The position numbers and the translations under genes were made by a program. The notes under the pieces were generated by a model that made no database searches, was not told the origin of the DNA, and saw only the letters and a list, made by a program, of their open reading frames with translations. Of a DNA stretch of 64,000 bases, positions 15,851 through 59,500 are shown in pieces (the stretch's first letter is position 1; the number at the start of each line of letters is the position of its first letter). Origin of the DNA: Anaeramoeba flamelloides (lineage: Eukaryota > Metamonada > Anaeramoebidae); assembly GCA_027625915.1 (NCBI GenBank), contig JANTQA010000063.1, positions 558,001 through 622,000 of the forward strand, written 5' to 3'.

Positions 15851-15852
15851 AT

Positions 15853-17356: not shown

Positions 17357-19840
17357 AATCTTGTTCGATGAAAATCTTGCCAATTGTTTTGTTTGAAAAT
17401 CAAATTCTTATTAACACTTAAAATTGTATAGTTATATCAAGTGATTTATTTTTTTTAAACAAAATATATATACAATAAATAAAGAAATATAAAATATTTC
17501 TAATTTTTTTTTTTTTTTTTTTGTAATACTGCTCATGTTCAAAAATGGTTTCTTAATTTTTCATTATTTTTTGATCAAATTGTGATTTTTTAATTAAGGA
17601 AGTAAGTACATTTAACCATTTTGAAAATTTTTAATTGTGTTAACATTACTGAAAATTATTTTTTGAGTGCCACCAGATATTGAAACTTTGGAACCAAAAC
17701 AACATTCGTTAGTCTATTCGTAAAAAGAACTCAAAGTAATTCAGAGTTGAATCTAAAATTTTTAGAACATTTTTTTTTATTCTATTTTTGGTTTTATTAA
17801 ATTTGGTTTTAGATCAAGAGATGTGTTTATACGAACGATTGAAATTAATCAAGCATTAAACCAAAAAAATATAACTGAAAGGGTGTGCATTTTAAACAAA
17901 TATTTACCTATAGAAGAATAAACACAAAAAATCACTATTCTAAATAAATTTGTTGAAATCAAGAATGAAAAAAAAAAAAAAATCGATAAAAACCTATTTC
18001 TGAAGATTGGTTTTCTGTATTTTCATAGTTTGTATGAATACAAACTATTTTTTTCATTGAATTTCTCGCCCCATTACTATTTATTATTATTTTAAAAAGC
18101 TTTTTGTAACAAATTTGCTTTCAAAATTCTTTTTTAAAATATTTTTATCAAACAAAGCCAAAACAAAGAATACTATTTCAAAAATTAAAATAAAGGGGTT
18201 GAATTCTTGGAATTAAAAAACAGTTACAAAAGATTCAAATCAAAATAATTGAAAAATCCAATAACAAATTTCAATCAGATTCAGAATTATTTTGAGTTCT
18301 CATTTTTAATAGAAAAGAAATAATTATAAAATCAAATGAATTTGTCCAATAAACCCTTATTCTCAAGAAGAATTAAAAAAAATCACCAATTTTCAGAACT
18401 AAAACTAGAATTAGATGACATAAATAAAAATAGGATTTTTAAATTCATTTTGGAAATTCTTTCGATTTTAAAAAGTAATTTGTTTTTCAAAAATTTACCA
18501 AACAAAATTTTTTTCAAAAAGAATTAAAAATAAAACCAAATCAAGAATAAGTAATTGTGTAAAATGTTATTGATAAGACCAAGTAATAAATGATTTTTAT
18601 TTATTTTTTTTTGATCAATTTTTTCATTTTTTTGATTTCCGTTTTTTTATTGGTATGAAAATATCTTTATACTAGGATATATCCTACTTCAGTATTTATT
18701 AAAATATCAATGTATTTGGCTAAAGAAATGATTTGAAGAATTCAGTTTCACATAAATGGTGGCACTCAAAAAATAAAAAATGCACTTACCCCCTTAACTG
18801 TGATACTTTTTCGGTATACGTTAAAGGGTCGGGAAACTTGACATATGTTCAATGTTTTAAGTAACAGTCAATTCCTCTTTATTAACCAGAGATTTTTTTT
18901 TTTTTTTTTTTTTTTTTTGATTTTTGGAGGAGATTTTTGTTGCTCCAAATCACTTCGTTTCCTTTTTAAATATCATAAAATATGACTAAATATATCAATT
19001 ATATTTGTAAGCTACCCAACACTTTTACAAATACTGTGAAATTATCACAGTTATGAAGAAATTACAATTTGATCTAAAAATTCATGAAAAATTCAAAAAT
19101 AATTTTTGAAATGTTTTAGAAGTCAACATAGTAATACAAGAAAAAACCAATTTAAGGTTTATGCTGATAATAAAATTTTGTTAAAAAATTATTTTCTGTT
19201 CAAAAAATTCTTTTATCATTTTGGTTTGTTTTATAAAAAAAATATATTGCTGTTATACAATAAAGAAAAATGATAATTTTTTTGGTTGATTTTAAAATAT
19301 TTTCACTTCAATTATTTAAATGTAATTAGATTAAAAAATTCTATTTTGAAAAATGAAAATTTTATATCTTATTTGAAAATATCAATTGATTAATAGTTGT
19401 ATTTCCATTTTTTTTTTTTTTTTTTTTTTTATTTAAAAGTGAGAAAATTAATTTTCTTTTAGAATTATTGTTTTTTTTTTTTCTTAAATTAGAAAGAATT
19501 ATGTCAATTCTAAAAAAAATTTCATCTCAAAATATATTAAAATATGAAAACAACATTTAAATTTTCTTGATTTTATAGTTTATTCAGAAAATACATAAAA
19601 TTTTATAGATAAAATAGAAAATCTCAAGAGAAAATTCAGATTAAGTTTTTTGTTAATTGAAGAAATAAAATTATTAACAAAGACATTTTTGGTTTATTTC
19701 TTAAATTAAAAAAAGCTAGATACTCTAAAGTATATTAATAAACATCCTAATTTTTAAATTTTTATTTGTAAATTTAAATAAAGAATCATATATATATATA
19801 TATATTTTATCTTTAACCATTGATAAGATAAATAATTAGC

Positions 19841-19871
<31 letters not shown>

Positions 19872-20035
19872 GAATAATATCAAAAATGGTATTATTATTG
19901 TTTTTATTAATTTGATAAATAAAAAGAAAATCTATTTTTTTTATAAACAAAAATAGCATCACATAAATCACCGTTGACTTTTTTAAACGTTTTTTTTTTA
20001 TTATAAAATCCCTAAATTCTCAATACAAATATATA
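17357..20035. other. Gene-free stretch
   Basis: Nothing coding recognised; the frame at 18336-18527 has no motif. Poly-T runs at about 17505-17521, 18894-18918 and 19411-19430; (AT)n at about 19789-19804. Poly(A) signal-like AATAAA at 17474-17486 follows the homeobox gene. Confidence 0.5.
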
Positions 20036-20039
20036 TATA

Positions 20040-20860
20040 AAGTGGGAGGGCATATATTTTTTCATGATATTTAAAAGAATAGAGTAAAAATCTTTGATTT
20101 TAATTTAAATCGTTTGAATTTGTAAAAATTTAGCTATATTTTCTTGTTTTTTCTGTTTATTTCCAAAAATAAATTAATTTTACAGTCAGTTCCACTTTTA
20201 AGGCACAAACTTTCAAAGAAATTTAAGTCACAAAAAAATCTCAAATTAAGGAACAAAATTTGTAATTTTTTTTTTTACAATTTATTTTACTAGAATTTGA
20301 ATTTTGTGCCTTAATTTGAGATTTTTTTTGTGCCTTAAATTTCGTTGCAAGTTTTGCCTTAATTGTGAAACTGACTGTATAATAAAACTGAAAATTCCAA
20401 GAAAACCACTTTTAGGTTTTATTTTTTTTATATTTTGATTTTAAAATAAATATATTACCGAAATAAAAACAAGAATTGAAAAAAAAAAGTTATCTTTTCG
20501 AGGATTTAATAGAATTAAGAGAAAATTTTGATTTTTCTTTAATTCTGTTTCGTGTATTGTTATATTTTCTTAATTGATTTTTATAATTAGAAAATTGATA
20601 TATCTTGTAACAAAAACAAGAAAATAAAAAAAAAAACACATTATCTTTACTTTAGTTTTCTGTTTATTCCAAAAATAAATATATTTTATAAAAAAATAGA
20701 CAATCCCAATAAAAGTGTTATTTTTTTCCACAGTTTAAAAGAATTGACAAGAAAACTTTATAAATTTTCTTTTCATTTCTGAAATTAAAAAAAACTGTGT
20801 TTAGCTTTTTTTTAATTTAAAAAAATTGAATAAAATCAATAATTTTACATAATTATTTTG
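20040..20860. repeat. Worn hairpin cassette interrupted by a mariner-like MITE
   Basis: Contains cassette modules: AAAAGAATAGAGTAAAAATC near 20075, and AAAAGAATTGACAAGAAAAC followed by a mirrored TTTCTTTTCATTTCTGAAATT near 20740-20800. Degenerate compared with the copies at 38.1, 51.3 and 56.7 kb. The TA-flanked MITE at 20183-20377 splits it, so the cassette is older than that insertion. Confidence 0.5.
20183..20377. mobile_element. 195-bp Tc1/mariner-like MITE, CAGTCAGTTCC ends, copy 1
   Basis: TA at 20181-20182 and 20378-20379; ends CAGTCAGTTCCACTTTTAAG and its mirror ending GAAACTGACTG. Nearly the whole element is palindromic: AATCTCAAATTAAGG in the left half pairs with CCTTAATTTGAGATT in the right half. 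Same length as the copy at 28468-28662. Confidence 0.85.
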
Positions 20861-24564: not shown

Positions 24565-25230
24565 TTTAAAAGAAATGAGAAAACTCAAATATTTTTTTCA
24601 ATTCTTTTAAATTAAAAAAAATTGAATGGCACTTTTCTTGAGTTTTTATACATTACTATTATACTCCAATTAAAAAAAAAATTTTTTTATTTCACATTCC
24701 AAAATAAATATCTGGTTTATAAGTTGAAGTAAAACCAAAGAACTCCAGAACATCGTTTAAATGATAGTTTTAGACAATAAATTTAACTTCCTGAGTTAAT
24801 TCTAAGAAAAAATTTTTAAACTGGTAATTTGATTGTAGCAGTAATAATTAATATTCATTTTGAATTGGAAATAAAAATTTTCATTTATTAATTAGAAAAT
24901 AACAGTATTCTAAAAACCTATTGATTTTCAGATCAAAATAGAAAACTAAAAAAAACATATGTACTCTATGACACTCTACGGTACTCCCATTGGGCATTTT
25001 TTTAATTTTACAAAATAAAAAGAAAATTTAAATAATTTTTTTTTTTATTTCTCACATTATAAAAAAGCTAATGGTGATTTTCCAGAATTCAAAAGAATAG
25101 ATAAAAATCAAAGATTTTAGTCAATTCTTTCAGATTCAAAAAAAAAATCAAGGTCATAAGAGGAAATTAATTCTCTCTTTTGAAAATTCAAAATAAAAAT
25201 AAATAAAAATAATTACCATAAATTTATTTC
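24565..25230 (+). repeat. Hairpin cassette, plus orientation
   Basis: In order: CTCTATGACACTCTACGGTA (24964-24983), a worn C hairpin to about 25060, TTTTCCAGAATTCAAAAGAA (25080-25099) starting hairpin A, then AGAGGAAATTAATTCTCTCT (25158-25177), the F hairpin, then an A-rich tail to 25230. The order D-C-A-F-A-rich agrees with the other copies. Confidence 0.6.
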
Positions 25231-27381: not shown

Positions 27382-28084
27382 TTGCTTTTTTTAATATTTT
27401 GTTTAATTGAGGAATATTTTGGAGAAATATTAAAAAATGTTTTTTAAAAAAGTTCGAAGAAATGATTAAGGTTGTCTGAATGAAGAAGAAATGGTTTGAA
27501 GAACAGACTAAAAATTCAAACAGCTTTGAGTTGGGTAGTGATTTGTACTCTTATTAGAAATATTTCTATAGTTAGAGTGGTAATAAAAGTAGAAAAAGAG
27601 AAAAGATTTTTAATTTATTTATTAAATCTGGAGTAGTATTAATTCTTGAGGAATTAGTTACTAAAATAAATATAATAAATTAGAACTTATATAATAAGGT
27701 GGTTCTCTATTATAGAAAGTAATATGTAATTTCAAAAAATAATATTGATTTTTCCAAGTTAGATAAAATTAATAGATTAATTAACATTTCATCCTTAATA
27801 ATAAAATTTATTTACTATATAATCAACATTCCAGAAATTCAATTGTATGAAACCATTATATTTTCTTTTGTTCAAAGTACTAGAATTTTTTAAAAAATCT
27901 CTATTCTAGAGAAAATAAGTTCCACAAGGGATAAAAAATTCCAAATAAAAGGAAGAATAAATTTCAAAAAATTGAATTTTGAGGTTTTAGTTTAATAGAT
28001 AATAACCAGAAGTTTTGAAAAGGTTGTACTCTTCTAATAAAGTCTAAATTTTTTATAAAAATCCCCATTGGTAATTATTGATGT
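27382..28084. other. Upstream flank of the MED17-like gene
   Basis: Nothing recognised besides AT-rich sequence. It should contain the promoter of the leftward gene. Confidence 0.5.
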
Positions 28085-28300
28085 GTCTTTCAAGTGGCAT
28101 AGGGTACTGTAGAGTCCCTAGGTTTTCTTTTTTTATTTTTGAAATTAAAAGAAAAATCTTGAAATTTTCGTTTTATTTCTACAAATTAAAAAAAACCTAA
28201 GGACACTTTTCCAGAATACAAAAGAAAAGAGAAAAATCTATGATTTTATACTAATTCTTTTAAATATTAAAATAAAAAACTATGGACACTCCCAACTGGT
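28085..28300 (+). repeat. Hairpin cassette, partial
   Basis: GGCATAGGGTACTGTAGAGT at 28097-28116 (short CACTCTACGG-type unit), then TTTTTATTTTTGAAATTAAAAG paired with TTTCTACAAATTAAAAAAAAC (hairpin C, about 28128-28197), then CTTTTCCAGAATACAAAAGA (28208-28227) beginning hairpin A. The F end is not seen. Confidence 0.55.
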
Positions 28301-28467
28301 AGAATTCAATAACTCATTATAATTGCAATATAAATTTTGTTTTTAATTTTTTTAAATTGAAATTGTTTGTTAGTGTTGATTATAAGATTGAATTTTATTA
28401 ATTTGTAAAGTTAATGCAGAAACAAATTTTCTAATTTATTTTTGAATGTAAAATTTCTTTTTATTTA

Positions 28468-28662
28468 CAGTCAGTTCCACTTTCAAGGAACAAACTATTA
28501 ACCAAATATAAGGTACACAAAAAATCTCAAATTAAGGCCCGAAATTCAAATTATTGTAAAACAATTACTGTTAAAAGTAATTCAAAAAAATGTGCCTTAA
28601 TTTGAGATTAAGTGTAAATTAAATTTCGTTGAAAGTTTGTGTCTTCGTAGTGGAACTGACTG
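28468..28662. mobile_element. 195-bp Tc1/mariner-like MITE, copy 2
   Basis: TA at 28466-28467 and 28663-28664; ends CAGTCAGTTCCACTTTCAAG and TAGTGGAACTGACTG. It has the same length and the same internal inverted block (CTCAAATTAAGG / CCTTAATTTGAG) as 20183-20377. Confidence 0.85.
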
Positions 28663-28664
28663 TA

Positions 28665-29903: not shown

Positions 29904-32038
29904 ATGACAGATAAAAATTCAGAACTCAACAAATTTAGTGATGAATTAAAATGGAATACAATTGACACAAGTGAATTCTCATGGGGAGGAGTTACTGAGT
30001 CTGGTTTTTTAACTTTAGAAGTTCTTGATTCAAAAGAAATCAAAACAGTTGATCTTCTTAACCCTCGTAAACGAAAACAACAAGAAAATGAAGAAAACAA
30101 ACAATCACAATATCACGAAAAACTAATCAACCCATGGACAATTAAAAAAAAAACAGAAACAAAAACAAAAACAACAAAACAGAGAAAAAACCAAAAGGAA
30201 AAACAAAGGTGATCAAAAACAAAAAATCAAAAAAGTAAATATTAAAGCATGGGAATCTTTAGGTTTGAATCAACAAATCTTGGACAATTTGTCAAGCCTT
30301 GGCTTTAAGGCGCCTTTACCCATCCAAGCTAAATGTGTCCCACCTGCTATTAAATATCACTCGGACATTGCAGGAGCCGCCGAAACAGGCAGTTGTAAAA
30401 CCTTTGCATACTCCTTACCTATTATTCATCAAATAATCGAAAAGCTAACCAAGTACGGCCATTACAGGGATCTCAACGCATATAAGAAATGGAAAAGCAG
30501 CTCACCATTGCAGGCATTAATCTTGTGTCCAACAAGGGAATTGGCGGTTCAGGTGCAAAAGGAAATTGAAAAGATCTTAAAAAACACCTATTTGAGGGTC
30601 ATTTCTGTAATTGGAGGGATCAGCGTCCTCAAACAAGATCGCTTGATCGGCTATCGCCCAGATATTGTTGTGGCAACGCCAGGCCGTTATTGGGAAATGG
30701 TTCAAAACGGATCAAAGTATCTTTCAGATTTATCTGGTCTCTGCTTTTTTGTAGTTGACGAGGCAGATAGGATGGTCCAAGTTTCGAGATTTAAGGAAAT
30801 GAAATTAGTTGTTGATTTAATTAAGCAAAGCCAAAATGATAATCCAAATCGTAAAATATTTGGAGAGCGCCAAACTTTTGTTTTTTCTGCAAATTTGACT
30901 TTCCTTTCTGATAACAGTAAAAGACCAGAAAGGGGCAAGAAGAAATTGTTAGGGAAGAAAGCAAATGAAAAGAAAAATCAGACAATGAAGGGTAAAAAAA
31001 GGTCAAATTCTGTTTCGGACTCGATCTCTGGCTCGGATTCTGAACAAGAACCAAGGCTTGACGAAGAATCTGTGTCAGACTCTGAAAATAATTGGAAAAC
31101 TCGAAAGGGCGAAGGTAACCAAATCATTGATTATATTTCAAGCAGATTAAAATTTTTAAATAAACTTGAAGTCATCGATCTAACTAGAAAGCAGGTTCTG
31201 GTCGAAGGGCTTTCCGAATACAAATGTACTTGCTTAAATGCGGAAAAGGATTTAATGCTCTATTATTTTTTGGCATATCATCGGCCAGGCAGGACCCTAG
31301 TGTTTACAAACACGATCGATCAAATTCGAAGATTAGTCCCAATACTCCGAGAATTGAAATTAAATGTCTGGCCTCTTCATGCGTCCATGCAACAACGGCA
31401 TAAAAATTTGGAAAGATTTGAAAGCTTAAAGGATTCATTCCTAGTAACCACCGATATCTCTGCCCGTGTGTTGCATATTCCTAATGTGAGTTCTGTTGTG
31501 CATTTCCAATTCCCAAAGAATCCCGAAATTTATGTACATAGATGCGGAAGAACCGCAAGGGTGGGCACTACCGGTGTATCTCTTTCAATACTTGGCCCAT
31601 TTGACATCAAATTTTATAATAAAACTATTAATCGTTTAAATCAAAAGCAATTACAAAAATTTAAAAAAAACCCAGACTCCGAATTTCAAGAACACGAATT
31701 ACAAATTGTTGAACTCCCAATCGACAAAACAATCTATTCGCAGCTTCGTAAAAGAGTTAAATTGGCAAGAAAAATTACCAAAGTTGAGCATTCAGAAATC
31801 AAAAGAAATGTTTGATAGAGATTGGGAAAAAAGAACAGCGGCCGCTTTAGATATTATTTTATCCGACGAGGAAGACAGCGATGAAGATAGTATGACCGAT
31901 GAAGAAGAAATTGTACAAGAAAGAAAAAAATTCCAAGCTAACCGTGATCTTAGAAATTGGAAAAAAGACCTTGACTATTTACTTAATAGACCACTTTTAT
32001 TAAAATTTTCACAAAGAGAATTTGACAAATTATTATAA
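29904..32038 (+). CDS. MAK5/DDX24-like DEAD-box RNA helicase, two frame breaks and altered motifs
   Basis: Start ATG 29904. The N-terminal part has the MAK5/DDX24 signature FSDELKWNTIDTSEFSWGG..GFLTLEVLD, then a basic linker. Core order: Q motif AWESLGLNQQILDNLSSLGF..PLPIQ; motif I AAETGSCKT; PTRELAVQV; TPGRYWE; VDEADRM (DEAD intact); motif III FSANL; LVFTNTIDQIRRL; motif V TTDISARVLHIP; motif VI YVHRCGRTARVG. The family norm is GSGKT, SAT and ARGLDIP, so three ATPase/RNA motifs differ. The C-terminal tail (RDWEKRTAAALDI..acidic) is also family-typical. The frame changes twice: in a 10-A run at about 30142-30152, and at about 31805-31815, where GTT TGA T leads by a +1 step into DRDWEKR. MAK5/DDX24 works in nucleolar 60S subunit assembly. 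This could be an intact gene with assembly errors, a programmed shift, or a decaying paralogue. Confidence 0.88.
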
Positions 32039-34026: not shown

Positions 34027-37000
34027 TTAATTAAAAAGAAAAAATAAAGATAATAATAATAATAAGGAACTAGCAAATAACCCTTTAGCGTCATTTGTAG
34101 TCGAAGGAGAAGAATCTGAATATTCTGTGACTACCTTAATTATATAATTGGCAGTTTGTTCATTATCTGGGCAATCATCATTAACGACGAACTTAATCTT
34201 GTATTCTTCTGTGTCATCTGGAGCTGTCCCTGAAAAATTTAAATTTTCTGAATCCCAGATCAACCAATCTGGTAGTTCTGTATTGTCGTCTAGTGTAACG
34301 GTAAAGTTTAATTGTTGATTTTCAGGATCAACAAATTCATTATTTTCAAAAGTGATTGAAAAATCTTTTTTTTGCAAGATTTCCTTCGAGCCAAGGTCTT
34401 TGATTGTAGGTTCCTCGTTGACCTTTGATAATTTGAAAACAGTAAAATCTGAACCTTTATTATTTTTGGCATCGACTTTAATATCCCAGGTTTTTTCGCA
34501 TCCTTCGGGTATGTTACCGGAGAATTCTCTTGTAGCTGAAACGAAATTTAGCCAATCTGGAAGTTCTGTGCCGGAAACCAAGGTGGCAGTATATGAAATC
34601 CCCATTCCTGCAAAGGTATCTTCTGGGAAGACATATTGCCAGTTCTGAGTGTTGGTATCAGCTTCTTGGTCGGGGATCTCGTTTTCAAGTTCTGGTGCAT
34701 CCGAGGCAACTGCGAAATCGAAAACATCAGAAACAGAGGCGTCGCAGTCGTCTGTGGCGGTGACTTTGATGCTCCATTCGCCATTTTCATCGGGCGATGT
34801 GCCTTGAAAGTTCTGGGTGGAGGCAGTGAATGTCATCCAATCTGGAAGTGGATCGCCGTTTTCAAGAGTGGCAGTGTATGTTAATGTTTGTTCCTCTGGA
34901 TCGGTGAATGTATCCTCAGGGATGGTGAAATCAAATGCGGTGCTTTTGTTGTGTGAGTTGTTATCAATGGGGGTGTTCAGTATTGGATTTTCGTTGACGA
35001 CTTCAAGGGCGAATGTGGAAGATACATCATTACAACCATCACTAGCAGTTACCTTGATCTCATAGGAAATTGTCTCACAAGTTTTTGTTGGTATTCCGCT
35101 GAATTTTCTTTGATTTGAGTTGAATGCTAGCCAATCTGGTAAATCTTCGTCGTTAAATTGCTTCGCAGAAAATGTTAATTGTACCTCTTCGAGATCAATA
35201 AAAATATCATCGTCAAATTGATAACTAAATTGTTTGAGACTGTGTGCGGTTTGATCTTCAAGATCTTTTTGGCTATCAAGTGAAGGTGGCTCGTTCGTCG
35301 TTGTAAATTTGAAAATGTCTTCAACAGTATTGGTTCCACAGCTATCATCAGCTTGAAGACTAACTTCAATGGTTTGTCCACAATCGCTACTTTGGACTGC
35401 TGCTGTATATTCCTTTGCGTTTGAATCAAATACGAACCAGCTTGGTAAATCGGATCCACTGGATAGTTTAGATGACAAAGTTAAAGTTTCTCCTTCTGGA
35501 TCATCAAAGGTATTGCTTACATCAATTGTATATTGAGCATTGATCGATTTTGTTTGATCACTTACAGCATTTTCAATTGTTGGTTTGTCATTAGTTGTTG
35601 TAAATTGAAAAATATCTTCAACAGTGTTTGTTCCACAACTATCATCAGCTTTAAGACTAACTTCAATGGTTTGTCCACATCCAGTTGTTGAAGTTTTTGA
35701 ATATTCCTTTGCACTTGAATCAAATGTGAGCCAACTTGGTAAATTGGATCCACTGGTTAGTTTAGATGACAAAGTTAAAGTTTCTCCTTCTGGATCATCA
35801 AAGGTATTGCTTACATCAAGTGTAGATTGAGCATTGATCGATTTTGTTTGATCACTTACAGCATTTTCAATTGTTGGTTTGTCATTAGTTGTTGTAAATT
35901 TGAAAGTCTCTTCAACAGTGTTTGTTCCACAGCTATCATCAGCTTTAAGACTAACTTCAATGGTTTGTCCACATCCAGTTGTTGAAGTTTTTGAATATTC
36001 CTTTGCACTTGAATCAAAAGTGAACCAGCTAGGTAAATCGGATCCACTGGTTAGTTTAGATGACAAAGTTAAAGTTTCTCCTTCTGGATCATCAAAGGTA
36101 TTGCTAACATCAATTGTAGATTGAGTAGTGATCGATTTTGTTTGATCACTTACAGCATTTTCAATTGTTGGTTTGTCATTAGTTGTTGTAAATTGAAAAA
36201 TATCTTCAACAGTGTTTGTTCCACAACTATCATCAGCTTTAAGACTAACTTCAATGGTTTGTCCACATCCAGTTGTTGAAGTTTTTGAATATTCCTTTGC
36301 ACTTGAATCAAATGTGAGCCAACTTGGTAAATTGGATCCACTGGTTAGTTTAGATGACAAAGTTAAAGTTTCTCCTTCTGGATCATCAAAGGTATTGCTA
36401 ACATCAATTGTAGATTGAGTAGTGATCGATTTTGTTTGATCACTTACAGCATTTTCAATTGTTGGTTTGTCATTAGTTGTTGTAAATTTGAAAGTCTCTT
36501 CAACAGTGTTTGTTCCACAACTATCATCAGCTTTAAGACTAACTTCAATGGTTTGTCCACATCCAGTTGTTGAAGTTTTTGAATATTCCTTTGCACTTGA
36601 ATCAAATGTGAGCCAACTTGGTAAATCGGATCCACTGGTTAGTTTAGATGACAAAGTTAAAGTTTCTCCTTCTGGATCATCAAAGGTATTGCTTACATCA
36701 AGTGTAGATTGAGCAGTGATCGATTTTGTTTGATCACTTACAGCATTTTCAATTGTTGGTTTATCATTTTGAATTATTAAATCAAATGTACCTTCGTCTG
36801 AGCCACCACAATTGGTAGCAGTGACTTTTATAGTATAGGTAGTGGAGCATTCATCATCAACAGTTCCTGAAAAGGTTCTTGTATCAGAATTAAATGAGAT
36901 CGATCCTGGTAAGTCTTGTCCATTTGATTGTTTAGCGCTATACTCAAGATTTGTTCCACTAAATGCATTTGAAGCAAATTGGTAATTCAAACTCTCATCA

Positions 37001-40000
37001 AAATCAATAGTTTGTTCAAGGAGCGAATTTGTATTATAAACTGGTGCACTGTCAGAACAACCATCGCAATCGTTGGTTACTGCTCCATTCATACAGGCAC
37101 ATACACCAGATGATTTACATGCACCATAACCATTACAGTCCAGGGATGGATCACAATTGTTTGTTATATAATTTGTAGAACCGCAGATGTTATCTGATAA
37201 AAATCCATCGGATGTTACTAAATCTTGTCCTTCGGGATATCTCCATATGTCTCCCTGTGAATCTTTAACCATAAAAAAGTATGTGTCGCATGATGTAGGC
37301 TTTGTCATTGAATATGTATAAGTTCCCATACTTATCTCGCTCATTTGATATGTATTCCATGTAGATTGGCCATCTTCTAAATAATTAACATATACCCACG
37401 TTGGGTCTGAGCCTGGAGAGTTGGGTTCATAATAATTAAGAATGAAAAAAAAATTATTTGAAGAATCAACAATATGAGCTGCAGAAGCAACAGGATGATT
37501 TGGTTCACTCCAATCTGATCTCGAAGCAAAACTTTCTGTATAATAATTTTTTATGTCGGAAGTTTCTTTTTTTTTTTTTTTTTTTATTTTTTGATAACAT
37601 TAAGGAACAAATATAAAAATAATTAATATTGCAAAAACAAACAAATCAAAAATAATTGTATAAAGAATAGATAGACAAGCTTTTTATGGTGTTTTTATAA
37701 AAAAAAAATTTGTTCAAGAGGGATTTTGTAAAAAATATATTATCTTTTGTGAGATATTTCTCTAAAAAAGTAATTTTTTTTTTATATTTCCATTTTGCAA
37801 AATTTCAAATAAATAACAAAATAATTTAATAGAACTCATTGGAAATAACAGAAACTTTATAACTAAATGAAATTAAGGAAAAAATAATTTAATTTTCAAG
37901 ATTTTTTAATCCAATAATTATGAAAATTATTGAAATAATTTATTCATAATGTGCAAATTCAACTAAATTTAGTTAATTATTTTTAGGAATTTTCATGGTT
38001 AAAAATATTTTTTAACAAACTATTTTGAAATAAACTAGAATTCAATTTTTAGTAAGTGATAATAAAATTTGTGATTCTTGAACAAAATTTCTAAAAAAAA
38101 GTTTAAAAATTAGGTAAGTGTCGTAGAGTGCTGTCAAGTACCGTAGAGTGCCGTAGAGTGCCTAGGTTTTCTTGAGGTTTTCTGTTTTATTTGTTAAATC
38201 TATCGATTTTCGTTAGGTTTTTTTTACTTTTTGAAATAAACCGAAAATTTATTAAAATTTTCTGTTTATTTCAAAAAGTAAAAAAAACCTAGAACACTTC
38301 ACAAATAAACAGAAAACTCAAGAAAAGCTAACGACGTTTGTTTTTAATTTAAGAAATAAAAAGAAAATTTTATAAATTTTCTTTTCATTTCTAAAATTAA
38401 AAAAAACCGAACGGCACACAGGAGAAAAATAATTCTCTCTTCAAAAATAAATGAATAGAATTCAATTTTTTTTGCGCAGTTAAAAATGTTATAAGAAAAG
38501 TAATAATATTCTTTTATTTGGTCAATTTGGAAAAATTTTTGATATTGACAAATCTTTTTATATTTTGGTATTATTTAATCATTTTTTTATTTTTTTCCAT
38601 TTTTCTCTGGCTAAATCTTCTTTATTGTGGAAGAAGAGCTACAAAGGAAGAAGAGTTATAAAGGAAAAAGATCTGGTAGTTACTTGATAATATTGAGATA
38701 TTTAAACACCGCAGTATGGGTAAATTGAAAATTAAAAAACAAAAAGAAAAAGGTAAAAAATGACCAAAGGATTAAAGCAAATCAGATCAAAAAAAAAAAA
38801 AAAAGAAATTAGAACAAGTAAATAACGATCCCCAAATGAGCATTCGTGTTTATTTATCAAACTAAACTAAATCAACCAAAAGTATCATAGCTGTGATTTT
38901 GTGTATTCTTTGATTAAAGATAGTTTTGGCCTTTTGATTTTGTCCTAATTGCTTCTTATAAATCCCTGTTTTCATTTTAATTTTTTTTTCTTTTTTTCTT
39001 TTGATCCATAATAATTATGGGGATGTCTTTTACCTTGAATAACCGTGAAATCTATGATTTTACGCTTAAATTACCTTTTAGGGGATTTAAGTAAAAAGGT
39101 ATCTAGAGTATAATTTTACACTTCTTCAATAATAATATTCTTATAAATTATTTCCTGTTTTAAATTTCTCCAATGTAAGGAAATAATTAAAATGATGAAA
39201 AGGTATTCTACACAAAAAAGGTAGAAAGCAAATATAAGAATTAATGAAAGTATTTTTGTTACCAATTTTAAAAATACAATATTTGTACGATCCAAAAGTC
39301 ATAACTATTTTTGTTAAACTTTTGTAAATATTCATTACGAAATAACTCTTAATTTCTGAATTACTTAATCTTCGAACAACTGTCTTTTAAAGGGGTTATC
39401 CTCTACCAAGGAGAAGCACAAGATCAAAGTATGTTGTTATTGGGTGTATACCAAATTAGTGATCCATGGTTCAAATGTCTCTAAAAAATCGATTAGTCAA
39501 GTAGTAATATTTATTTATCTCATCAATTAAAAAATGATTCATTGTATTTGTAAAAAAATCTCACAATTTCAGAAAAAAATCTGCATTTCGCCATAAATTT
39601 AAAGGTTGAATTATCAATATTCAGACTCTAAAGCTGTAAAATATCTTTCTTAAATTTGTGGCGAAATGTAGATTAATAGCTAAAAAATTCATTTTTTTTA
39701 GCAATTAAATAATTAACGAATAAAGTTTTTTGTCAAATTATTTCTCAAATCATGGAAATATATTGATGCTACAAGTATCTTTATCAAAAGCAAACAAAAC
39801 TAATCAATCTTGGTTTTTTTATGTTGATGATTATTGAGTTAATCTTTGGAATTAAAAAATTGATAAAGTATTTACTTTTGAAAGTTCTAAATATGAATTA
39901 TTAAATACTGGAATAGTATTATTTAGAGTTTCTTTTTTGAGATTTGGAAAAGGAATTAAAAAAAAAAAATTTCCAAAATGAAAATTTTTAATTCTGATCA

Positions 40001-45988: not shown

Positions 45989-46356
45989 CAGTTAATTCCA
46001 CTTTGAAGGGAATCGTCTCTATTATTTTTTTTTTGACCAATTTCTAAATAAAGATCCCTATCTAGAATTATGTTTAATATGAAAATAAACAGGGGTTTCA
46101 AATAAAAGTAATTGGCAACAAATATTCTCAATCTCTATTAAATTTTGATAAAAAAATTTAATAGAGATTAGTCCCTTAACAATATTTTAATCAAAATTTA
46201 AGGTAAAAAGAATAATCTCAAATTAAGGTACAAAAATTGGATTTTTTTTTTACACAAATTATTTTACTTGAATTTAAATTTTGGGCCTTAATTTTAGATC
46301 AATTTTGTGCCTTAAATTTCTTCCAAAGTTTGTGTTTTAAAAATAGATACTCACTG
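45989..46356. mobile_element. Tc1/mariner-like MITE copy 3, split by a TTAA-type MITE
   Basis: TA at 45987-45988 and 46357-46358; ends CAGTTAATTCCACTTTGA and AGATACTCACTG. The interior after the insertion (CTCAAATTAAGGTACAAAAA, GTGCCTTAAATTTC) matches the 195-bp family. Total 368 bp; removing the 167-bp insert and its flanks leaves about 195 bp, the size of the two uninterrupted copies. Confidence 0.8.
46008..46174. mobile_element. TTAA-type 167-bp MITE, copy 2, nested
   Basis: Left end GGGAATCGTCTCTATT, right end AATAGAGATTAGTCCC, followed by TTAA (46175-46178); the left flank is TTGA, a worn TTAA. Reversed relative to 24383-24560; both carry the GCCAATTAC / GTAATTGGC and TTTCTAAATAA blocks. 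Confidence 0.75.
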
Positions 46357-46359
46357 TAT

Positions 46360-49124: not shown

Positions 49125-49378
49125 AGTATCTTCAGGTTCCTAGCTTTTCCAGAATTCAAAAGAATATAGAAAAATCCTTAATTTTGCACAATTATTTTAA
49201 ATTCTGGAAAAGCTAACGGTGTTTTATTTTTAATTTGAGAAATAAACTGAAAATTGATTAATTTTCTTTTATTTCTCTTAATTAAAAAAAAACCTAACGA
49301 TAAACAGGAGATATATTTATTGAATCACCTCTCTTTTCAATATTATAAAAAAAAATTAAAAAAAAAAAAAAAAATATC
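49125..49378 (+). repeat. Hairpin cassette with A-rich end
   Basis: In order: TTCAGGTTCCTAGC (49129-49142), hairpin A (CTTTTCCAGAATTCAAAAGA..TTTAAATTCTGGAAAAGCT, 49144-49211), hairpin C (about 49218-49295), ACAGGAGATATATTTATTGA with CTCTCTTTTC (F, 49305-49340), then a poly-A tail to about 49375. Orientation and terminal A-tract match the other copies. Confidence 0.7.
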
Positions 49379-50540: not shown

Positions 50541-53500
50541 TTTTTTTTGGTTTAGTTAATAATTGTATTTTGATAATTTCATAGATGTATTATTAGATAA
50601 ATATAAAACTAGTCCCATACACTATATATAAATATACACAGAGATATGTTTATTCAAATTTTAAATTAACTTAAAATGGATAAAAATGTTTTCCATCACG
50701 GATCCAAATTGAGAGTTTTTTTCACAAATGATTGATACCTTTCATTGATGATCTATTTAATTGATAATGAAACAACAGAAGAAACCTCTTATATTACTGG
50801 AAATGAAATAAATTCATTTCACAATTTTTAAAATTATTATTGAGATTGTTTTTTATTTATTTTTAATCTTTGCTTTTTTGATACAACTAAACTCTTTTTT
50901 CAAAAATTGTCAAATCTAAACTATATTTCAAAAATTGTTACTCACCCGAAATAATAAATTAACTCTTTTTCAGTCAAATGGGCCCAGTTTTATTATAGAA
51001 ATAGAACATATTCTCTAAGTCTAACCCAATATTCTTCTCAAAATATATTTTCAATTTTTAATTCTGATCATTTTTTCTAAATTTGTAAATTTTTTTTTTT
51101 TGTTTTTTGATTTTTGCTTTTTTTCTTGTTTTTTCTTTTTTTTTTTTTTTTTTTTTTCTTTTTTTTTTTTTTTTAAAAAAGCCAATTTGAAAAAAAAAAT
51201 TTTAAAAACCCACAATTAATTCTAATAAAAATGAGACTTTTTAATTTCTTTAAAAATCAATATATATATATATATATATATATATATTGATGGGAGGAAA
51301 TTAATTTTCTCTTACAGCGGTTAGGTTTTTTTTACTTTTTGAAATAAAAAGAAAATTTCAAAAATAATTCCTTTTAATTTCAAAAATTAAAAAAAACCTC
51401 GTTAGCTTTTCCAGAGTTTTCTGTATATTTTGAAAATCAATAGATTTTCGTTAGGTTTTTTTTACTTTAGAAATAAAATAGAAGACCTCAAAAAAACCTA
51501 GAACACTTCACAGATAAAACAGAAAACCCCAAGAAAACCGACGTTAGCTTTTCCAGAATTTAAAAGAATTGAGAAAAATCATCGATTTTACTCTATTCTT
51601 TTGAATTCTGGAAAAGCTAGGCAATCCACGGCACTTCACCGAATTCCTAAATTTTTATTTAGGAATTTTATTAAAGACTCAAAAATAAGTTTATTACCCA
51701 CTAAGGCTAATAAGCACGATGAATCTTTTTTTGTAATAATATTCGATAAATTATTATTTTTTAATATATACTAATAAAAAAAAAAATAATATGACATGTA
51801 ATACGTGTGATATAGAAGTGTTTCAAGTGTTATAAAATTTGAAAGAAACTGATTAAAATATTAATAACTTCATCTATAACATGTTATAAAAAAATGAACA
51901 AATATTAACATTTTTTTTTTGTTATAAAATAGGTTATAAAATTTTGTAACGTGTTCCATCTCTGTTATTAGAAATAAAATATGCTATATAATGTGTTATA
52001 AATTAAGTATATTGAAAAGCAATAATACAATAAAAAAAAAAATACATAATACATCTTGTTAAAATTGTTTAACCATTAAAAATCATGATAGAAAACTGTT
52101 ATAAATTGTAAAATTATCATTAAAAAAATTTTTTTAAACGAATTGTAATTAAATATTTTTATTTTATTTTTTTTTTAAAGATTTTTTATATAATAAAAAT
52201 TTATAACAATATAAATACGTTTTTATAACTTTTTTTATTCAAAAATCACAATATAAACAAGATTTTTGTTATAAAGATGTTATCCGATTGTTTTAAAATT
52301 ATTTTTTTATTAGGGTATTAGATATATTAATTATTTTTAATTCAGATATCCATAGTTTGCGATTATTTTCATCGGCTGGACAATTCCATAGAAGATGGTC
52401 TAAATCTTCAAAGATATCTAAATTGTTTATTTTTTTACATATCTTACAATATTTTGATTTATTTTTATTCAAAACATAAGAATGCCTGTTAAGGTAATTC
52501 GTAAAATTTCTGAGTTTTAAAATTGAAGTTGAACCCTTCCATTTTAAACATCTTTTGTCTTTAGGTTTTGCAAAATTTAAAAGAATAGAGGAAAACCAAA
52601 GATTTTACTCTATTCTTCTGAATTTTGGAAAAGCTAACGTTAGGTTTTCTTGGGGTTTTCTGTTTTATCTGTGAAGTGTTCTAGGTTTTTTTGAGGTTTT
52701 CTATTTTATTTGTGAAGTGTTCTAGGTTTTTTTTACTTTTGAAATAAACTGAAAATTTATTAAAATTTTCGGTTTATTTCTAAAGTAAAAAAAAACCTAA
52801 CGAAAATCTATTGATTTTCCAAATATATAGAAAACTCAAAAAAAGCTAACGTTCGTTTTTTTTTTTAATTTAAAAAATAAACCGAAAATTTCTAAATTTT
52901 TCTTTTTATTTCTAAAATTAAAAAAAACCTAACTACATTTCCAACTTGGACTATTTTCTAAATTTTTAATTCTGAAATTTTCTAGTTCAATTTCTAGTTG
53001 TTTTAAATTTTTCGATTGCCAATTAATATTTTCAAATTCTTTTTTTCTAAAAGGGAGATAATTAATTAATTCATCAAAACCGAGGATTTTTAATTTTTGA
53101 ATGAACTTAAATCTTTTTTTATATATTGTTATTCTGACAGGATCTATATTTGTTTCTGTTTTATAAATAAGCCTAGGGGGGGTGTGGGTTGATTAATAAA
53201 AAATTTGTAATTTTTTTATTAATCCAAGTCTCGATATCTTTAAATTCCGTTTTTATCAAATCAAATATTTTGAATTCATATTAATAATTGTTTATAAAAT
53301 ATAGCTTTAAAAAACTGAATTTTTAATCCATTAGAAAATTGTTTTGTTGTGAGATATTGATTAATTTTTTACAAATTGGTCTTAACTTTATCTAGGTTAA
53401 ATTTTTAATGAGTCTTAGCCTCAGCCAAATAACAAGATATAAAATTTCCTTTGGAATTAAAGTTTTTTTAGTTTTATTATTGCTAGAATTCATTCCAAAA

Positions 53501-56500
53501 TCTCTTATTATTTTATAGATTTTTTATAATTGAAAATTGATTTCTATTAATGTTCCTTTCGTTCGTAAAATTAGATCATCTGCAAACATTTGGACATGTG
53601 ATGCCAGTGATTTGATTTTTTTCTAAGAGGGAATGATTAATAAATCCAAATAATAAAGGAGATAATGGATTTCCCTGAATAACACCAATTCCTTCTTTTG
53701 AGTAATAAGCAAGTAGATATTTTACAACAATTTCATTTTTTATGATTTTTTAATTGAATAATAAATAAGTGAATGATGAATAGAGTCAAAACATTTTTGC
53801 ATATCTATTGTAACGATATAAATATTTTCTTTTTTAAATTTATTTTTTTAAAATTTGATATTCATTCAATAAGTTTAAAACTCAAATGCTGATATCTAAT
53901 TTTTTTTTTAAATCCAAATTGGTTTTTTTGAAACTAAATCTCAAGATTCTTAGATTCCTCCATATAACAATTTAAGAAAAAATCTTGGGAGAGTTTTGTT
54001 AATTGAAATTGGTCGGTAATAAAGTGGTATTCCTTCGTCTCCAGATTTATGAATGAATAATAAATTTCTTTTTTTAATAAATTTAATATTTTTCTGAGAA
54101 TTATCATTAATCCAATTAAAAAATATAAAAATTGTTTTTTTTTGCCTAAATTTAGTTTTTGTTTTTGAAGATAAATTATGAATTCTTTTGTAATTTTTTG
54201 TTATTTCAATTTTTCGTTATTATAAGATCCTATGGTACTTTTTTTTTTTTGTTAATTGTGTTTTTTGTCATTAAGATCTTGTAAATTTATTATTATTATT
54301 CTTATTTTTGTCTTTTGCAAGTTTAGAATCTATATTTTTGTTGTTTGAATTTTTTTATTGGGATCTTGTTGATTTTTATTTTGTGCTATTTCTCTTTGTT
54401 GTAGATACTCTATGAATTTTTTTTTTTTTTTGTTATTTGAATTTCATTCATTCAAAAAGTTTACTCTCGTATTATTATTTTGAGAGAGTAAGACACCACT
54501 TGGGTTAAAAAAAAAAAAAAAAAAATCACTGTAAGTGAATAGAGCCTAAAGAATGATAAAGATGATCAATACATCTTTTTAATTCTCATTTTCGAAAGAA
54601 AGATATTTTCTAATTTTAAGTAAAGTGTGTATTTTACAATAAAAAATTTAGAGAACGAAATACGAAAAAAAAATGATCTCTTCTGAATACTGATAAATTT
54701 AAAAAAATTCAAAAAAATTTTTAGTTCAATTCCCATATTTGTAAATCTTGTAATTATTCTACTTTTAAAGCAGTTATTGAAAAAGAATATTTTGAAAGAT
54801 TAACTAATTTTACAAGGTTTCATAACATTTGTACCAATAACATGCTTTATTTGAAATCTAAAGTAAAAAAATTTACAAAATGAAAATTGCAGAAAAAATT
54901 TTCAAACATTTATGTGAATTTATCATTATTTATTTCTATCAATATGGGCACTGTTAATAATAATAAAAAAATTCACGAGAAAATTGTAATTAATCAATAC
55001 ACATTTTCAAAGAAAGATGCTTTTTTTTTTTAAGAAATTACTTTTTATACCAGAAAGACATATTCCTATACAAAAGGTATATTATTCATTTACGTGATCT
55101 TTTTTTTTAATTTTCTTTGTAAAAATATTTGAGAAGAGAACGATAAGATTTTTTTTAAAATATTACATATTAGAGTATTCAATATAAAAAGAAATCATTT
55201 TAATTATTCAAAGTTAATCCATTTTCTATTTTTTTTTTTTTAAGATCAAATTCATGTACAATTTAAAATATTAGTTGAAAATACAATTATCTCTAAGTAA
55301 AGTATACACATTCAAATATTACAGTTAAAAATCCAATAAAAAGAAAAATAATTATCAAATAATAAGCAAATATCCTAAAAAAGATAAAATGATGAAAAAA
55401 AAAATCATACTTCATGAACTTGATATCCAGGGAATTTTGAGTTTGTTATTTCACGTATAACGTTATATTTGTCTGTCCAATCTTCATGAACAATTTCCCC
55501 ACTTTTATATATTTTTTTTACATAGCAGTGATTATAATTAACAATTTTCTATAATTAAAAACGAATTAAAATATAGAAATAATAACAAAAAATATAAAGG
55601 TTTTAATAAGATCAAAAAAAAATATTTTCAAATAAAAGAATAATTTTATTAAGGGTCTTGTATTTTTTAAAAAATGGAATGAAATCTTGTCAAGATACCT
55701 CAAATAATTTTTTTTTTGTAATTTGTGTTTTGGCTTATGAAATGGATTCAATTAACCCCACCTAAACAAATTTATTAATTAAGAGTCTATTTTTTGAAAT
55801 CCAAATTTTCACATTTTTCCAATATAAAACAAAAAAAAAGGTAACCTATTATTTTTATTAACAATTAAGTTAATTCTTGAAAATTGTGTATCATATTTTT
55901 CGTTATATGTTGGAAAGTAACTGATTTTGAAAAATAATTTTTCATTTAGTTATTATTTACATTATTAATATTTCAATTCAAATCTTAACAAATAAAACGA
56001 ATAGACGTGCCTGTGATTAAAAAAATCTAAATAAGACTGATGTATCTTTAACCAAGCTTTTTAATGAAATTCAGATCTCTTTCGAAAAAATTTTGTTTCT
56101 TTAGTGTTTTGAAAAAAGTTATTTTCTGGTTTTCCAAAAAATAAAAAAAAATTGCTAAACAATTTCGATTTTTAAAATTTTTTTGACAAATTATTTGGTC
56201 TCACTTCACAAGAATTCGTTATAACAATTTAAACCATTTTTGACAGAAAAAAAATCGATTTTAAATTTTGAGGGTAAAATTACTTAATTCACAAAAATAG
56301 CTTCAAGAAAATTTTATTGTAGGAAAATCAAATTTCATATTAAAACAATATCACAATTTATTAGTAAAATTTGTAAATGGCTTTTAAAAATTTAAAGGTT
56401 ATAACTATCCTTCCTGAAAGTAATATAAATATTTTTCAATAAGTTAAATAAATCAATTTTTTTGATTAACCAAAGGAATTATCTCAAAAAAGAAAAAAAA

Positions 56501-59500
56501 TCTCTTACATTAATATTTATTATAATAAATACTATTTATGATGTAATAGTGGCGGGAATAGCTAATAAATAGAGTAAAAACTTTTTATAGATATTTTTTT
56601 ATTGTAATTTAAGGGGGTGATTTTTAATTCCTCTTATTTGTTGTTAGGCTTTTTTTAATATTTTGCTTTTATTTGGAAAATTAATAGATTTTCGTTCGGT
56701 TTTTTTGACTTTTCGAAATAAACAGAAAATTTTAATAAATTTTCGGTTTATTTCGAAAAGTAAAAAAAATCTAGAACACTTCACAAATAAAATAAAAACC
56801 CTCAAAAAAACCTAGAACACTTAATAAATAAAACAGAAAACTTCAAGAAAACATAGGCACTTAACGGCACTCTACGGCACTTCACGTTAGGTTTTTTTAA
56901 TTTGAGAAATAAAAATAAAATTTCAAAAAATTTCTGTTTATTTCTAAAATTAAAAAACTGCCGATAGCTTTTCCAGAATTCAAAAGAATTGAGTAAAATC
57001 TTTGATTTTTTTCTCTATTCTTTTAAATTCTTGAAAACCTAGGCACTTGACAATACTTGGCGGTACTCTGCAGTACTTCCCGAAACGCTAAATATAAAGT
57101 CTAAACTTTGAAAAAATAAATTAAAAATGAAAATTGTATTTTAATATGGTTTTTCTTTTTTGGGCTTCTCAGATAATTTTTTTTTCTTTGAATTTATCAG
57201 TATTCAAACAATAGATCTAAATTAACCAATTTGAAAAAAGTGGTAAAAGGGTTTTAATAGGGTCCTAAAAATTCGTCTATTAAAGTTTATTGGCTGTTTT
57301 CGATATAATTATGAAAACTTTTTGATCACACTTTTTTAAAATTACTGTCTCAAGATTAGGGATCTAATATGGAAGTAATTTACATAAATTTCAAATTCTT
57401 AAGCAATTGAATACTTATTTTTCAAATAATACAGTTGTGTAAATAACCCGTGTTTTTTATTTTAATTCATTACTAAAATTTAACTCATGCAAAAAATATT
57501 GGATGGCTGTAGAAATAAAAGAAACAAATCAATGGGATGACAACATTATATAAACAAGAAATTGGGTTCTTTAAATAAATTTTAAAAAAGAATTATGAAG
57601 ATATGGAAAGATTAAAAGTTAATTTTTTTGACAAAAAAATGAGCATAATTTCATTTTTTTAGTTTTTATAAAAAAATCATTTAAACTCAGAAATTTTGTA
57701 AATATGATGAAATTTTTGAAACAAAACATTCAATATTATTGAACCATTTCGATTAATCAAAGATCTAACCTCTAAAGTCAATTTGAATCTGAACCAAGAA
57801 TATATAAGTGCCTTCTGGTCTTCCAATATCCAAGTCTGAAAAAAAAACAATGAGTTAAATTTTAGTAATGGGTTAAAGGTTGTCAACACTGGTTATTTAC
57901 ACCACTGTAGTTAAGGGCCCAGTCATTTGTCATGAATTTGCTCCAGACCCAAGGGATGGCTTGCCAACTAAAAATGGCATTGTGAAATTGAACTTCTCTT
58001 TTGGATGAAAACATTTGAATAACAAAAAAAAAAATATAAGAGGATCCTAATTACTGAAATCCAAAAACTGAACAATTCAAAAATAAGTTTGAAAGAGTTC
58101 TCAATTTCAAAAAATTCAAATTTAATTCAAAAAATTACTAATTTCTTATTTGATATTTCCAAAGGGTTAAATTTCTTCAATTTAAAACAAATTGTTTTCT
58201 GTCAGTTCATAAAATCAATTTAATTCTATTTCATCTAATTTATGGTTGTTTTGTAACCCTCTGTATTTGACAAAGTAAGGATTTTGTATGATTCTTTCTG
58301 TAAAAATAACTTGTTTGAAAAAGGAAAAAAATTTCAAAAAAATCTTCGAGATCTCAAAAAGGTCAAAGAGCGACACTTCGAAACTAATATAGTTGAATTT
58401 CCAAATTTTAATTCACAATCATTCGAATTCGAAATTTAGTATCGCTATTTGGCGCCTTTTTTCTAAAAATGTTTTCTTTTTTGATTGTTGATTTTTGGAG
58501 ATCGATCGTACATTAGATGTTTTTTTGTTTTGTTTGGAATTAGGTACTTTTAAAAAATTGCAAAAATTTTTTTCCATTTCAGAAAATTATTTTTTTCTGT
58601 AATGACTTGACCCTTAAAAGGTCAAAGATATTGAATTGGAAGCAAATTATCCGTTTTTTTGTTTCTGTGATTTTTGTGATTCTCTTATTGTCTACAATTT
58701 AAAAAAGGTTGATAATCTTTTTTTTTGCATTTTAAAATTTTTTGGCAAAACATTTGTTTTTTTAAAATATAAAATCGAATAATTCCAATTTTCTTATTAT
58801 TTTATCAACCAAATCCAAATAAGTTCACTCTCATTTTGAGTACAAGCTTAATTTGAAGTAGTTTTTTTGAAAAACTGTTGGTTAAAGTAGTTATGTAAAG
58901 AGTTCTAACGAAAAAACAAGGTACACTTTGAAATTAGCAAAGAATTTTGGAAAGAAAAACAATAACAAAAAAACAAATTATTAGTTACCCCATTATCTGT
59001 AAATTCTTTACCAATCGAGCCAACATACAAAACATCGTCTTTGATTGTTGCCCATTCGCATTTAAAACCTTTTGGTTGGTTTCCATCTCCCGTTGTTAAA
59101 ATATATTTTGGCACTACACTCTTTTCCTTAATTTCATAACCAATCCCAGATCTGTCATCAAACGCAAGAAGCATGCCATTCCATTTAATAAGCTCAGACA
59201 ACTCCATCCCACGATCAGACTCTGCAATGTGGCCACGAAGGGGGGTTTCCTTTTCCCAAACAAGGGAATATGTGTCGTCGGGATTACGAGTGAGGGTTCC
59301 TTGGTTAAAATACGAAATCCATGTATGCTTCTCTGTTACTAATTTGGATTTTTTATCCAAGTCAGAAATGATTCCAATGGTATACTTGTCGCGCACAGTA
59401 CCGATCATTTTTGCATTTTTGATGTTCGTCGTAATGGTTAACGAAAAAAGAAAAAGTATCAAGATTGCAATACACCCAATGACGCGAGGGTTGTTTTTCA

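Follow-up and report, generated by a model that had tools for sequence, protein, structure and literature searches.

Arrays of short hairpins in the genome of Anaeramoeba flamelloides seem to be passengers that have spread among several kinds of transposon, and not part of any one of them. This genome is AT-rich and comprises 254 Mb in 76 contigs; the stretch of 64,000 nucleotides from which the arrays were described is referred to as the window, and all positions count from its first base. Presence of the arrays is optional, their positions are fixed, their junctions are near-blunt, they are transported in LINE-type and SINE-like units, and some of them have chimeric flanks. We see even chances that they represent a decaying, non-autonomous modular hairpin element, which took up one fixed position in each of several transposon families and was then partly multiplied by its hosts.

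Entry at fixed bases, if real, would make the arrays transposon parasites whose choice of site is puzzling. If they are spread by conversion, they illustrate with unusual clarity how sequence passes between unrelated transposon families. Many filled and empty host copies are found in one and the same genome, and this makes the question of entry testable.

Modules of the array and their folding

A sequence-only reading of the window had delineated tandem short units (D), a unit E, the hairpins A, B and C, and a terminal element F. These modules are real, are found at the places named there, and fold strongly. At 38.05 kb their order is T-D-E-G-A-E′-C-F, where T denotes the LINE tail. The array starts with (T)AAGTGTCG directly 3′ of TTAGG, and its 5′ end (38115-38162, plus strand) consists, upon reading of the sequence, of 10-bp units of the GTGCCGTAGA type. 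This is followed on the same strand by a composite foldback, E-G-A-E′ (38162-38330), with E at 38162-38197, G at 38196-38217, A at 38214-38291, and E′ at 38288-38330, so that the A hairpin is the tip of a larger foldback. The array ends just past the C hairpin (38335-38409, plus strand) with ..CCGAACG. Borders are common to modules: the first unit begins with (A)AGTG[TC]CG.. and hairpins end in AAAACCTAACG. While single hairpins are palindromes, whole arrays show at most GTGTCGT..ACGACAC.

Folding is strongest for the 248-nt stretch 38163-38410 (-92.6 kcal/mol, z -14.6). The individual hairpins reach -39.0 kcal/mol (z -12.6) for A, -21.4 kcal/mol (z -6.7) for C, and -40.7 kcal/mol (z -11.2) for the B hairpin at 51545-51619. 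The F stem-loop (38413-38451) folds weakly (z -2.8).

Selection on RNA structure was considered and rejected, as the arms decay nearly independently and only A exceeds all shuffles. The paired fraction is 0.894 for B and 0.870 for C, compared to 0.892 and 0.863, respectively, when arms are redealt at random among copies. For A it is 0.913, above all 500 shuffles (mean 0.892, highest 0.904), and 53 compensated cells are found where shuffling gives a mean of 22 and a maximum of 37. Matching arms within A subtypes may account for this excess. In the arms, divergence of copies from the consensus of their module amounts to 7.6-9.1%, and the best-matching, presumably youngest, host copies that were fetched or listed are empty. 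We read the arrays as probable remains of a past burst which are now decaying.

Arrays in the window and their abundance

Apart from the array at 38.05 kb, arrays or their remnants occur at the following places in the window. Degenerate E′, C and B modules, broken up by other repeats, are spread over 19609-20860. At 24913-25137 (plus strand), array pieces (E-like, inverted D, C, B) precede what by eye is a LINE-type 3′ end with its terminal stem-loop. A D-C-B array (28087-28265, plus strand) has a TIR-element host as its left flank (27756-28021) and a reversed LINE ORF2 as its right flank. A B-C array (49141-49296, plus strand) is located at the 3′ UTR of an L015-type LINE, which is another LINE type. 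A B-E-E-G-C array (51287-51638, minus strand) lies between a diverged LINE tail (51639-51696) and the terminal stem-loop of that LINE. A B-C-D-E-E-A-G array (56667-57041, minus strand) is found at a LINE-type 3′ end with a terminal stem-loop, seen by eye, at about 56600-56660. Finally, a B-E-E-A-G-C array (52562-52933, plus strand) had been taken for a freely moving copy; instead, it lies in the coding region of a LINE ORF2, which has its flanks at 52311-52577 and 52902-54174 and is read from the opposite (minus) strand.

The constant polarity that had been noticed, D first and F last, holds for oriented LINE 3′ ends but fails at 24.96 kb, where the orientation of the D units with respect to the terminus is reversed. 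Similarly, the view that one and the same LINE tail occurs at 2.7, 38.1 and 51.6 kb applies to the first two, the tail at 38.05 kb being 97% identical to that at 2.7 kb, but not to the third, which belongs to a diverged subfamily and is only 78% identical to T. The LINE tail at 2709-2813 (minus strand) is empty: T joins F directly and, as had been stated, F is present without hairpins, which also holds for its 40 best genome matches. Upstream of it, remains of LINE ORF2 with a reverse transcriptase (2727-5025, minus strand; RVT_1, E 4.0e-22) were detected by tblastn with LINE ORFs.

The window contains other features as well. Long ORFs, as judged by eye, code for a homeobox-like protein (15829-16992), a DEAD-box helicase-like protein (30265-31815), and a repeated cadherin-like surface protein (34027-37344). 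A palindromic MITE of about 200 bp, CAGTCAGTT..AACTGACTG, adjoining TA, is found at 20180-20380, 28465-28664 and 46243-46358 and in many fetched loci; it may be mariner-like.

Nine clusters with at least two A, B, C or E modules were counted in the window, together with nine single modules. The reversed window, which served as a control, gave 8 matches over threshold at 7 places and no cluster. Only 4 clusters occur in the 30 loci (L009-L038, 108,879 bases) that had been fetched for reverse transcriptase, so the window is richer in arrays than those loci. Throughout the genome, the query 38045-38450 has at least 134 matches (the best 40 of 4445 candidates were scored), a 25-base sequence across the D-E junction occurs 220 times (control 0), and the core of the E module, with up to 2 mismatches, occurs 8,686 times (control 7). 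The E core is absent from 10 of the 11 TIR-host arrays that were fetched by host flank (L107-L117). As several arrays thus lack it, the genome probably holds on the order of ten thousand arrays or more.

Transport of arrays in LINE RNA

The earlier description of T as a LINE tail could be made more precise: reading of the sequence identifies it as the last codons of LINE ORF2 (..LSLVSDNKICDSLTKFLKKSLEIR|AHRR..). A relative, L010, has endonuclease and reverse transcriptase domains (Exo_endo_phos, E 3.1e-07; RVT_1, E 7.3e-31). At 2.7 kb, ORF2 is continuous through T into F, with its stop just 5′ of the A-rich end. At 38.05 kb, the array separates T, here 5′-truncated (38051-38114, plus strand), from F, the LINE 3′-terminal stem-loop with the A-rich end (38413-38451, plus strand), which is 90% identical to the LINE at 2.7 kb. 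The complete unit of T, array, F and A-rich end is enclosed by an exact 15-bp duplication, TAGAATTCAATTTTT, at 38036-38050 and 38456-38470. Abutting 15-mer repeats at this spacing were obtained in 1 of 20000 random placements; when the windows were looser, 35 of 62800 positions gave any 15-mer in common.

Equivalent duplications lie outside the LINE plus array unit in L008 (11 bp) and L046 (13 bp), which have other 5′ truncation points; in L046, microhomology makes the duplication extend over the first bases of the LINE. We claim target-site duplications for these three loci only, since the automated search of 29 rows was anchored wrongly in many of them. As the duplications enclose the whole unit, array-bearing LINE RNAs have been reverse-transcribed, and arrays are thus copied in LINE RNA.

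Two explanations had been offered for the association with LINEs. That a LINE carries a variable array at its 3′ end is correct insofar as such units were retrotransposed, but tails of the beta and gamma LINEs occur empty and arrays also reside in unrelated hosts. The other, that hairpin elements target this tail, likewise holds in part; LINE tails are just one context among several. Random module order without a link to the tail and without a common 3′ end, the pattern named as contrary to the LINE association, is not what the LINE contexts show.

Both tail queries were free of arrays and thus favour empty copies, which has to be kept in mind for the following counts. For the 2.7-kb (beta) LINE tail, the best 40 genome matches are all identical over 105 bp and empty. 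For the gamma-LINE tail, 39 of the best 40 places are contiguous without an array, at 89-95% identity. Among the copies examined, there is no young LINE subfamily that is fixed for one array.

Besides full LINEs there are short elements (L087-L091, L098), about 95-96% alike, that each combine a 5′ part with a 3′ UTR, both from an L015-type LINE, and lack its ORF. They form a LINE-derived non-autonomous family.

Hosts, empty sites and junctions

To survey the hosts, 20 of the 100 listed D-E junction places (out of 220) were hand-picked through the list before viewing. A recognised transposon flank was found for 17 of them: a TIR element for 7, the 3′ UTR of L015-type LINEs for 5, LINE tails for 2, LINE ORF2 for 1, and another LINE-like 3′ end for 2. 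One of these, L069, is counted once although its opposite side is flanked by ORF2. For the remaining three of the 20 (L067, L075, L078) no host flank was recognised. L078 is cut on the right, within the A hairpin, by another TIR element, GTTGTGGAAAAAAAGTGAAACACGG..CCGTGTTTCACTTTTTTTCCACAAC (about 983-1401 of the oriented copy).

Overall, host contexts comprise several LINE 3′ ends, LINE ORF2, a SINE-like element and a TIR element of about 710 bp. The ORF2 site corresponds to codon SWK|V, and the array is reversed relative to the ORF in L049, L050 and L055. The SINE-like host has roughly 280-390 bp and an (AAAT)n tail; two of its copies (L092, L097) are shorter on the 5′ side and are found between AAAAAAGATCTT repeats. 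The TIR host has similar inverted ends, CACTAGTATGAAAAAA.. and ..TTTTTTCATGATCGTG, and clear outer 2-bp repeats in 3 of the 5 copies for which both ends were read. An origin of the hosts from tRNA or a known RNA was rejected, as a tRNA scan of 8 host loci and a comparison of 4 host loci with Rfam families both gave 0 matches.

Array-free copies were found for six host sites. When host flanks were joined and used as query, and the best 40 matches were scored, contiguous matches were obtained for 16 in the TIR host (15 of these 16 were fetched and all are empty), for 31 in the 3′ UTR of the L015-type LINE, and for all 40 in the SINE-like host; queries of this kind favour empty copies. At the ORF2 site, the frame continues uninterrupted through SWK-V in L003, in the 2.7-kb LINE, and in at least 9 LINE loci out of the 30 (L009-L038).

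Alignment of filled and empty copies reveals that the junction is usually G|G, as in ATATTG|GAAAATC, TTTCAG|GCAAACAGG and TTAGG|GCACACAGG. In the junctions read, no clear target duplication beyond one G exists at the array ends, with L110 as the exception; SINE-like and ORF2 junctions are ambiguous by a few bases, so that a repeat of 2-3 bp is possible there. In L110 the array is bordered on either side by the 8-bp sequence AAAATCAA, repeated exactly, which sets this copy apart from the other filled ones of the TIR host; the end arms of its array are altered yet still match (TGAATAG..CTATTCA). L085 retains AAAAACCTAACG at the array site, apparently left over from an array that was lost.

The TIR host was analysed through 40 sequences, of which 22 are filled, 15 are empty, and 3 have no usable flank. 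Among the 22 filled copies, array length ranges from 89 to 842 bp by extrapolation, and 19 (left) and 18 (right) of them have the junction at an identical host base.

Overall lack of agreement between arrays and hosts

Identity between beta-type and gamma-type LINEs is 69-80% for T and 61-74% for F, while it is 80-90% for the array from E to C. Within beta LINEs the arrays are 82-89% identical, and within gamma LINEs 81-91%; all of these array values are raised by the fact that the copies were found through their likeness to the 38.05-kb array. A comparison of the E-G-A-E′ unit, which was obtained from 31 of 42 labelled loci, gave a distance of 0.104 within a context and 0.105 between contexts (p 0.38). 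The nearest neighbour is from the same context for only 1 of the 31 loci (expected 3.5). Four of the seven contexts are closer within than between: ORF2 (0.059 vs 0.088), one LINE-tail group (0.071 vs 0.096), the SINE-like element (0.083 vs 0.096), and the gamma tail (0.092 vs 0.099). The beta tail, the TIR element and the L015-type LINE are not. Judged from these distances, arrays overall do not track their hosts.

Three arrays are flanked by two different hosts. The array at 28.1 kb in the window combines the TIR host on the left with LINE ORF2 on the right, L069 the L015-type LINE with ORF2, and L004 the TIR host with a LINE tail. Recombination between arrays seems to have joined these unrelated flanks, and arrays may thus help to reshape the genome.

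With the filled SINE-like copy L042 as query, 20 of the 39 other places (best 40 scored) cover flank, array and flank at 77-93% identity, and it follows that the filled form was multiplied as a unit. For the filled TIR-host copy L066, only 3 others among the scored loci cover nearly the whole query of 411 bases, at 75-78% identity.

A tree of 31 TIR-host copies, from which 6 filled copies with short flanks were omitted and for which the bootstrap is not settled, requires 7 switches of filled/empty state, no fewer than 4 of which are forced. The mean upon shuffling is 10.6, and 14 of 500 shuffles are as low as 7. We also compared the flanks of 16 filled with those of 7 empty copies, all from the older set, leaving out the 8 youngest copies, all of them empty. 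Within 60 bp of the site there is no difference (p 0.40 and 0.33). This mildly favours separate insertions over conversion tracts that include long flanks. In the right bin from 60 to 120 bp, filled and empty copies do differ (p 0.022); this, together with the clustering on the tree, fits some degree of common descent. It thus seems that arrays were both carried by hosts and newly inserted.

Origin and spread of the arrays

We envisage that the decaying hairpin element entered its hosts by repeated site-specific insertion in one past burst, catalysed by a putative enzyme. Modules may then have been gained, lost and swapped via the shared borders AGTGCC.. and ..CCTAACG, recombination between arrays would have led to chimeric flanks, and array-bearing LINE and SINE-like hosts would have multiplied the array as a passenger. 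Site-specific entry is weakened by target sites that share little beyond G|G, and the 8-bp repeat of L110 is a further point against this view. Repeated insertion is weakened by the four contexts that are closer within than between, by the somewhat clustered filled TIR-host copies, and by the difference in the right 60-120 bp bin. No partner enzyme or autonomous partner was found in a search for the Helitron Rep domain (PF14214, 0 matches), the control for which was also without a match.

The same observations can be arranged differently. A single array may have entered each host family and been co-amplified with it, after which ectopic gene conversion or recombination erased the traces of descent and moved the insert among homologous copies. 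We regard this as possible, though on the doubtful side. It accounts for the use of one base across the copies of a host, and it is in line with the three arrays with two-host flanks, with the amplification of filled SINE-like copies as a unit, with the partial clustering of filled status on the TIR-host tree, and with the slight closeness within four of seven contexts. Against it, filled copies have no common near-flank signature within 60 bp (16 filled, 7 empty), arrays at one site range from 89 to more than 800 bp, and among the scored loci only 3 others share nearly all of the L066 layout. A pattern of filled and empty copies like the one read here as repeated insertion could also result from loss of arrays, or from conversion tracts that comprise no host DNA from the flanks.

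It is improbable that the individual hairpins are ordinary palindromic MITEs, mobilised by a cut-and-paste transposase, and the arrays nested clusters of them. Near-perfect palindromes of 70-80 bp do exist in several families, and L110, with its 8-bp repeat at either array border, would conform. Against this, other array ends that were aligned with empty copies have no target duplication, one border sequence is common to the modules, which recur in a given order, and arrays reside at one fixed base per host. We consider it at least as improbable that the array is a functional 3′ UTR of older LINE lineages (e.g. for reverse transcriptase recognition or RNA stability), lost in the young lineage and present elsewhere by accident: it does occupy the same place in several LINE clades, adjoining the terminal stem-loop, and is copied in LINE RNA, but the best-matching tails are empty (40 of the best 40 for beta, 39 of the best 40 for gamma), the arms are hardly held by selection (B and C near shuffled values, only A above), and the same arrays occur in non-LINE hosts.

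Comparison with known elements

The arrays were compared with established classes of elements. As for a LINE 3′ UTR proper, they were copied in LINE RNA inside target-site duplications (38.05 kb, L008, L046), but with the array-free queries they were not found in most full copies including young ones. Target-site duplications of constant length, as in palindromic MITEs, were not seen in the junctions read, except for L110. An A-tail and a target duplication around the array alone, as in SINEs, were not seen either, since the duplications enclose host and array. An apparent SINE head, suggested by a common start base, is an artefact of the query start, as L002, L003 and others have LINE sequence further upstream. 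An origin as spliceosomal intron or introner was also dismissed: the array at 38.05 kb starts with AG|GTAAGT, yet empty copies keep GCACACAG, and the sites in the TIR host and the L015-type LINE lack GT..AG. Helitrons canonically insert at an A|T site and have a CTRR 3′ end. Near-blunt insertion and a hairpin near the 3′ end would suit a Helitron, whereas neither this target site nor this end is seen in the arrays. A Helitron assignment is not favoured, with 0 matches in the genome to the PF14214 Rep domain, although its control has no match either.

Palindromic MITEs and foldback elements have long near-perfect inverted repeats and are non-autonomous. The arrays share both traits but have no regular target duplication, consist of several unrelated hairpins in order, and reside at fixed host positions. 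No description of such hairpin arrays was found among the papers listed from an open-licence library. The elements which look most alike are mitochondrial hairpin elements and bacterial REP/BIME mosaics, although we do not claim membership for the arrays; to our knowledge, neither of them is known at fixed bases of transposon families.

LINE/SINE pairs can share a 3′ stem-loop, and for stringent LINEs a stem-loop by the A tail is described (PMC5135761). The L015-type LINE, its short derivatives and the other LINEs are similar in ending in a stem-loop by the A tail, but the array is inserted optionally and immediately 5′ of this stem-loop, and is distinct from it.

Mitochondrial hairpin elements of sponges and of fungi such as Allomyces are portrayed in PMC2800124 as single, double or triple units with many scattered copies, some of them in coding regions. 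The likeness to these repetitive and double-hairpin elements consists of short hairpins, many copies and some coding insertions. The arrays reported here differ in their location, on contigs that reach 24 Mb, in having thousands of copies, and in their fixed transposon positions and recurring order of modules.

Bacterial REP, BIME and REPIN sequences (PMC2817692, PMC3116915) are mosaic hairpin arrays which are non-autonomous and very abundant, and the arrays are alike in all of these respects. REP-type sequences are, however, bacterial, extragenic and tied to a tyrosine transposase, while the arrays described here reside in transposons. We tentatively propose that the latter may be a nuclear hairpin element, resembling no named family known to us, with interchangeable modules and blunt, site-specific insertion at G|G, a parasite of transposons (e.g. 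just 5′ of the LINE terminal stem-loop) that would have its own putative mobiliser and would be the eukaryotic counterpart of REP/BIME mosaics.
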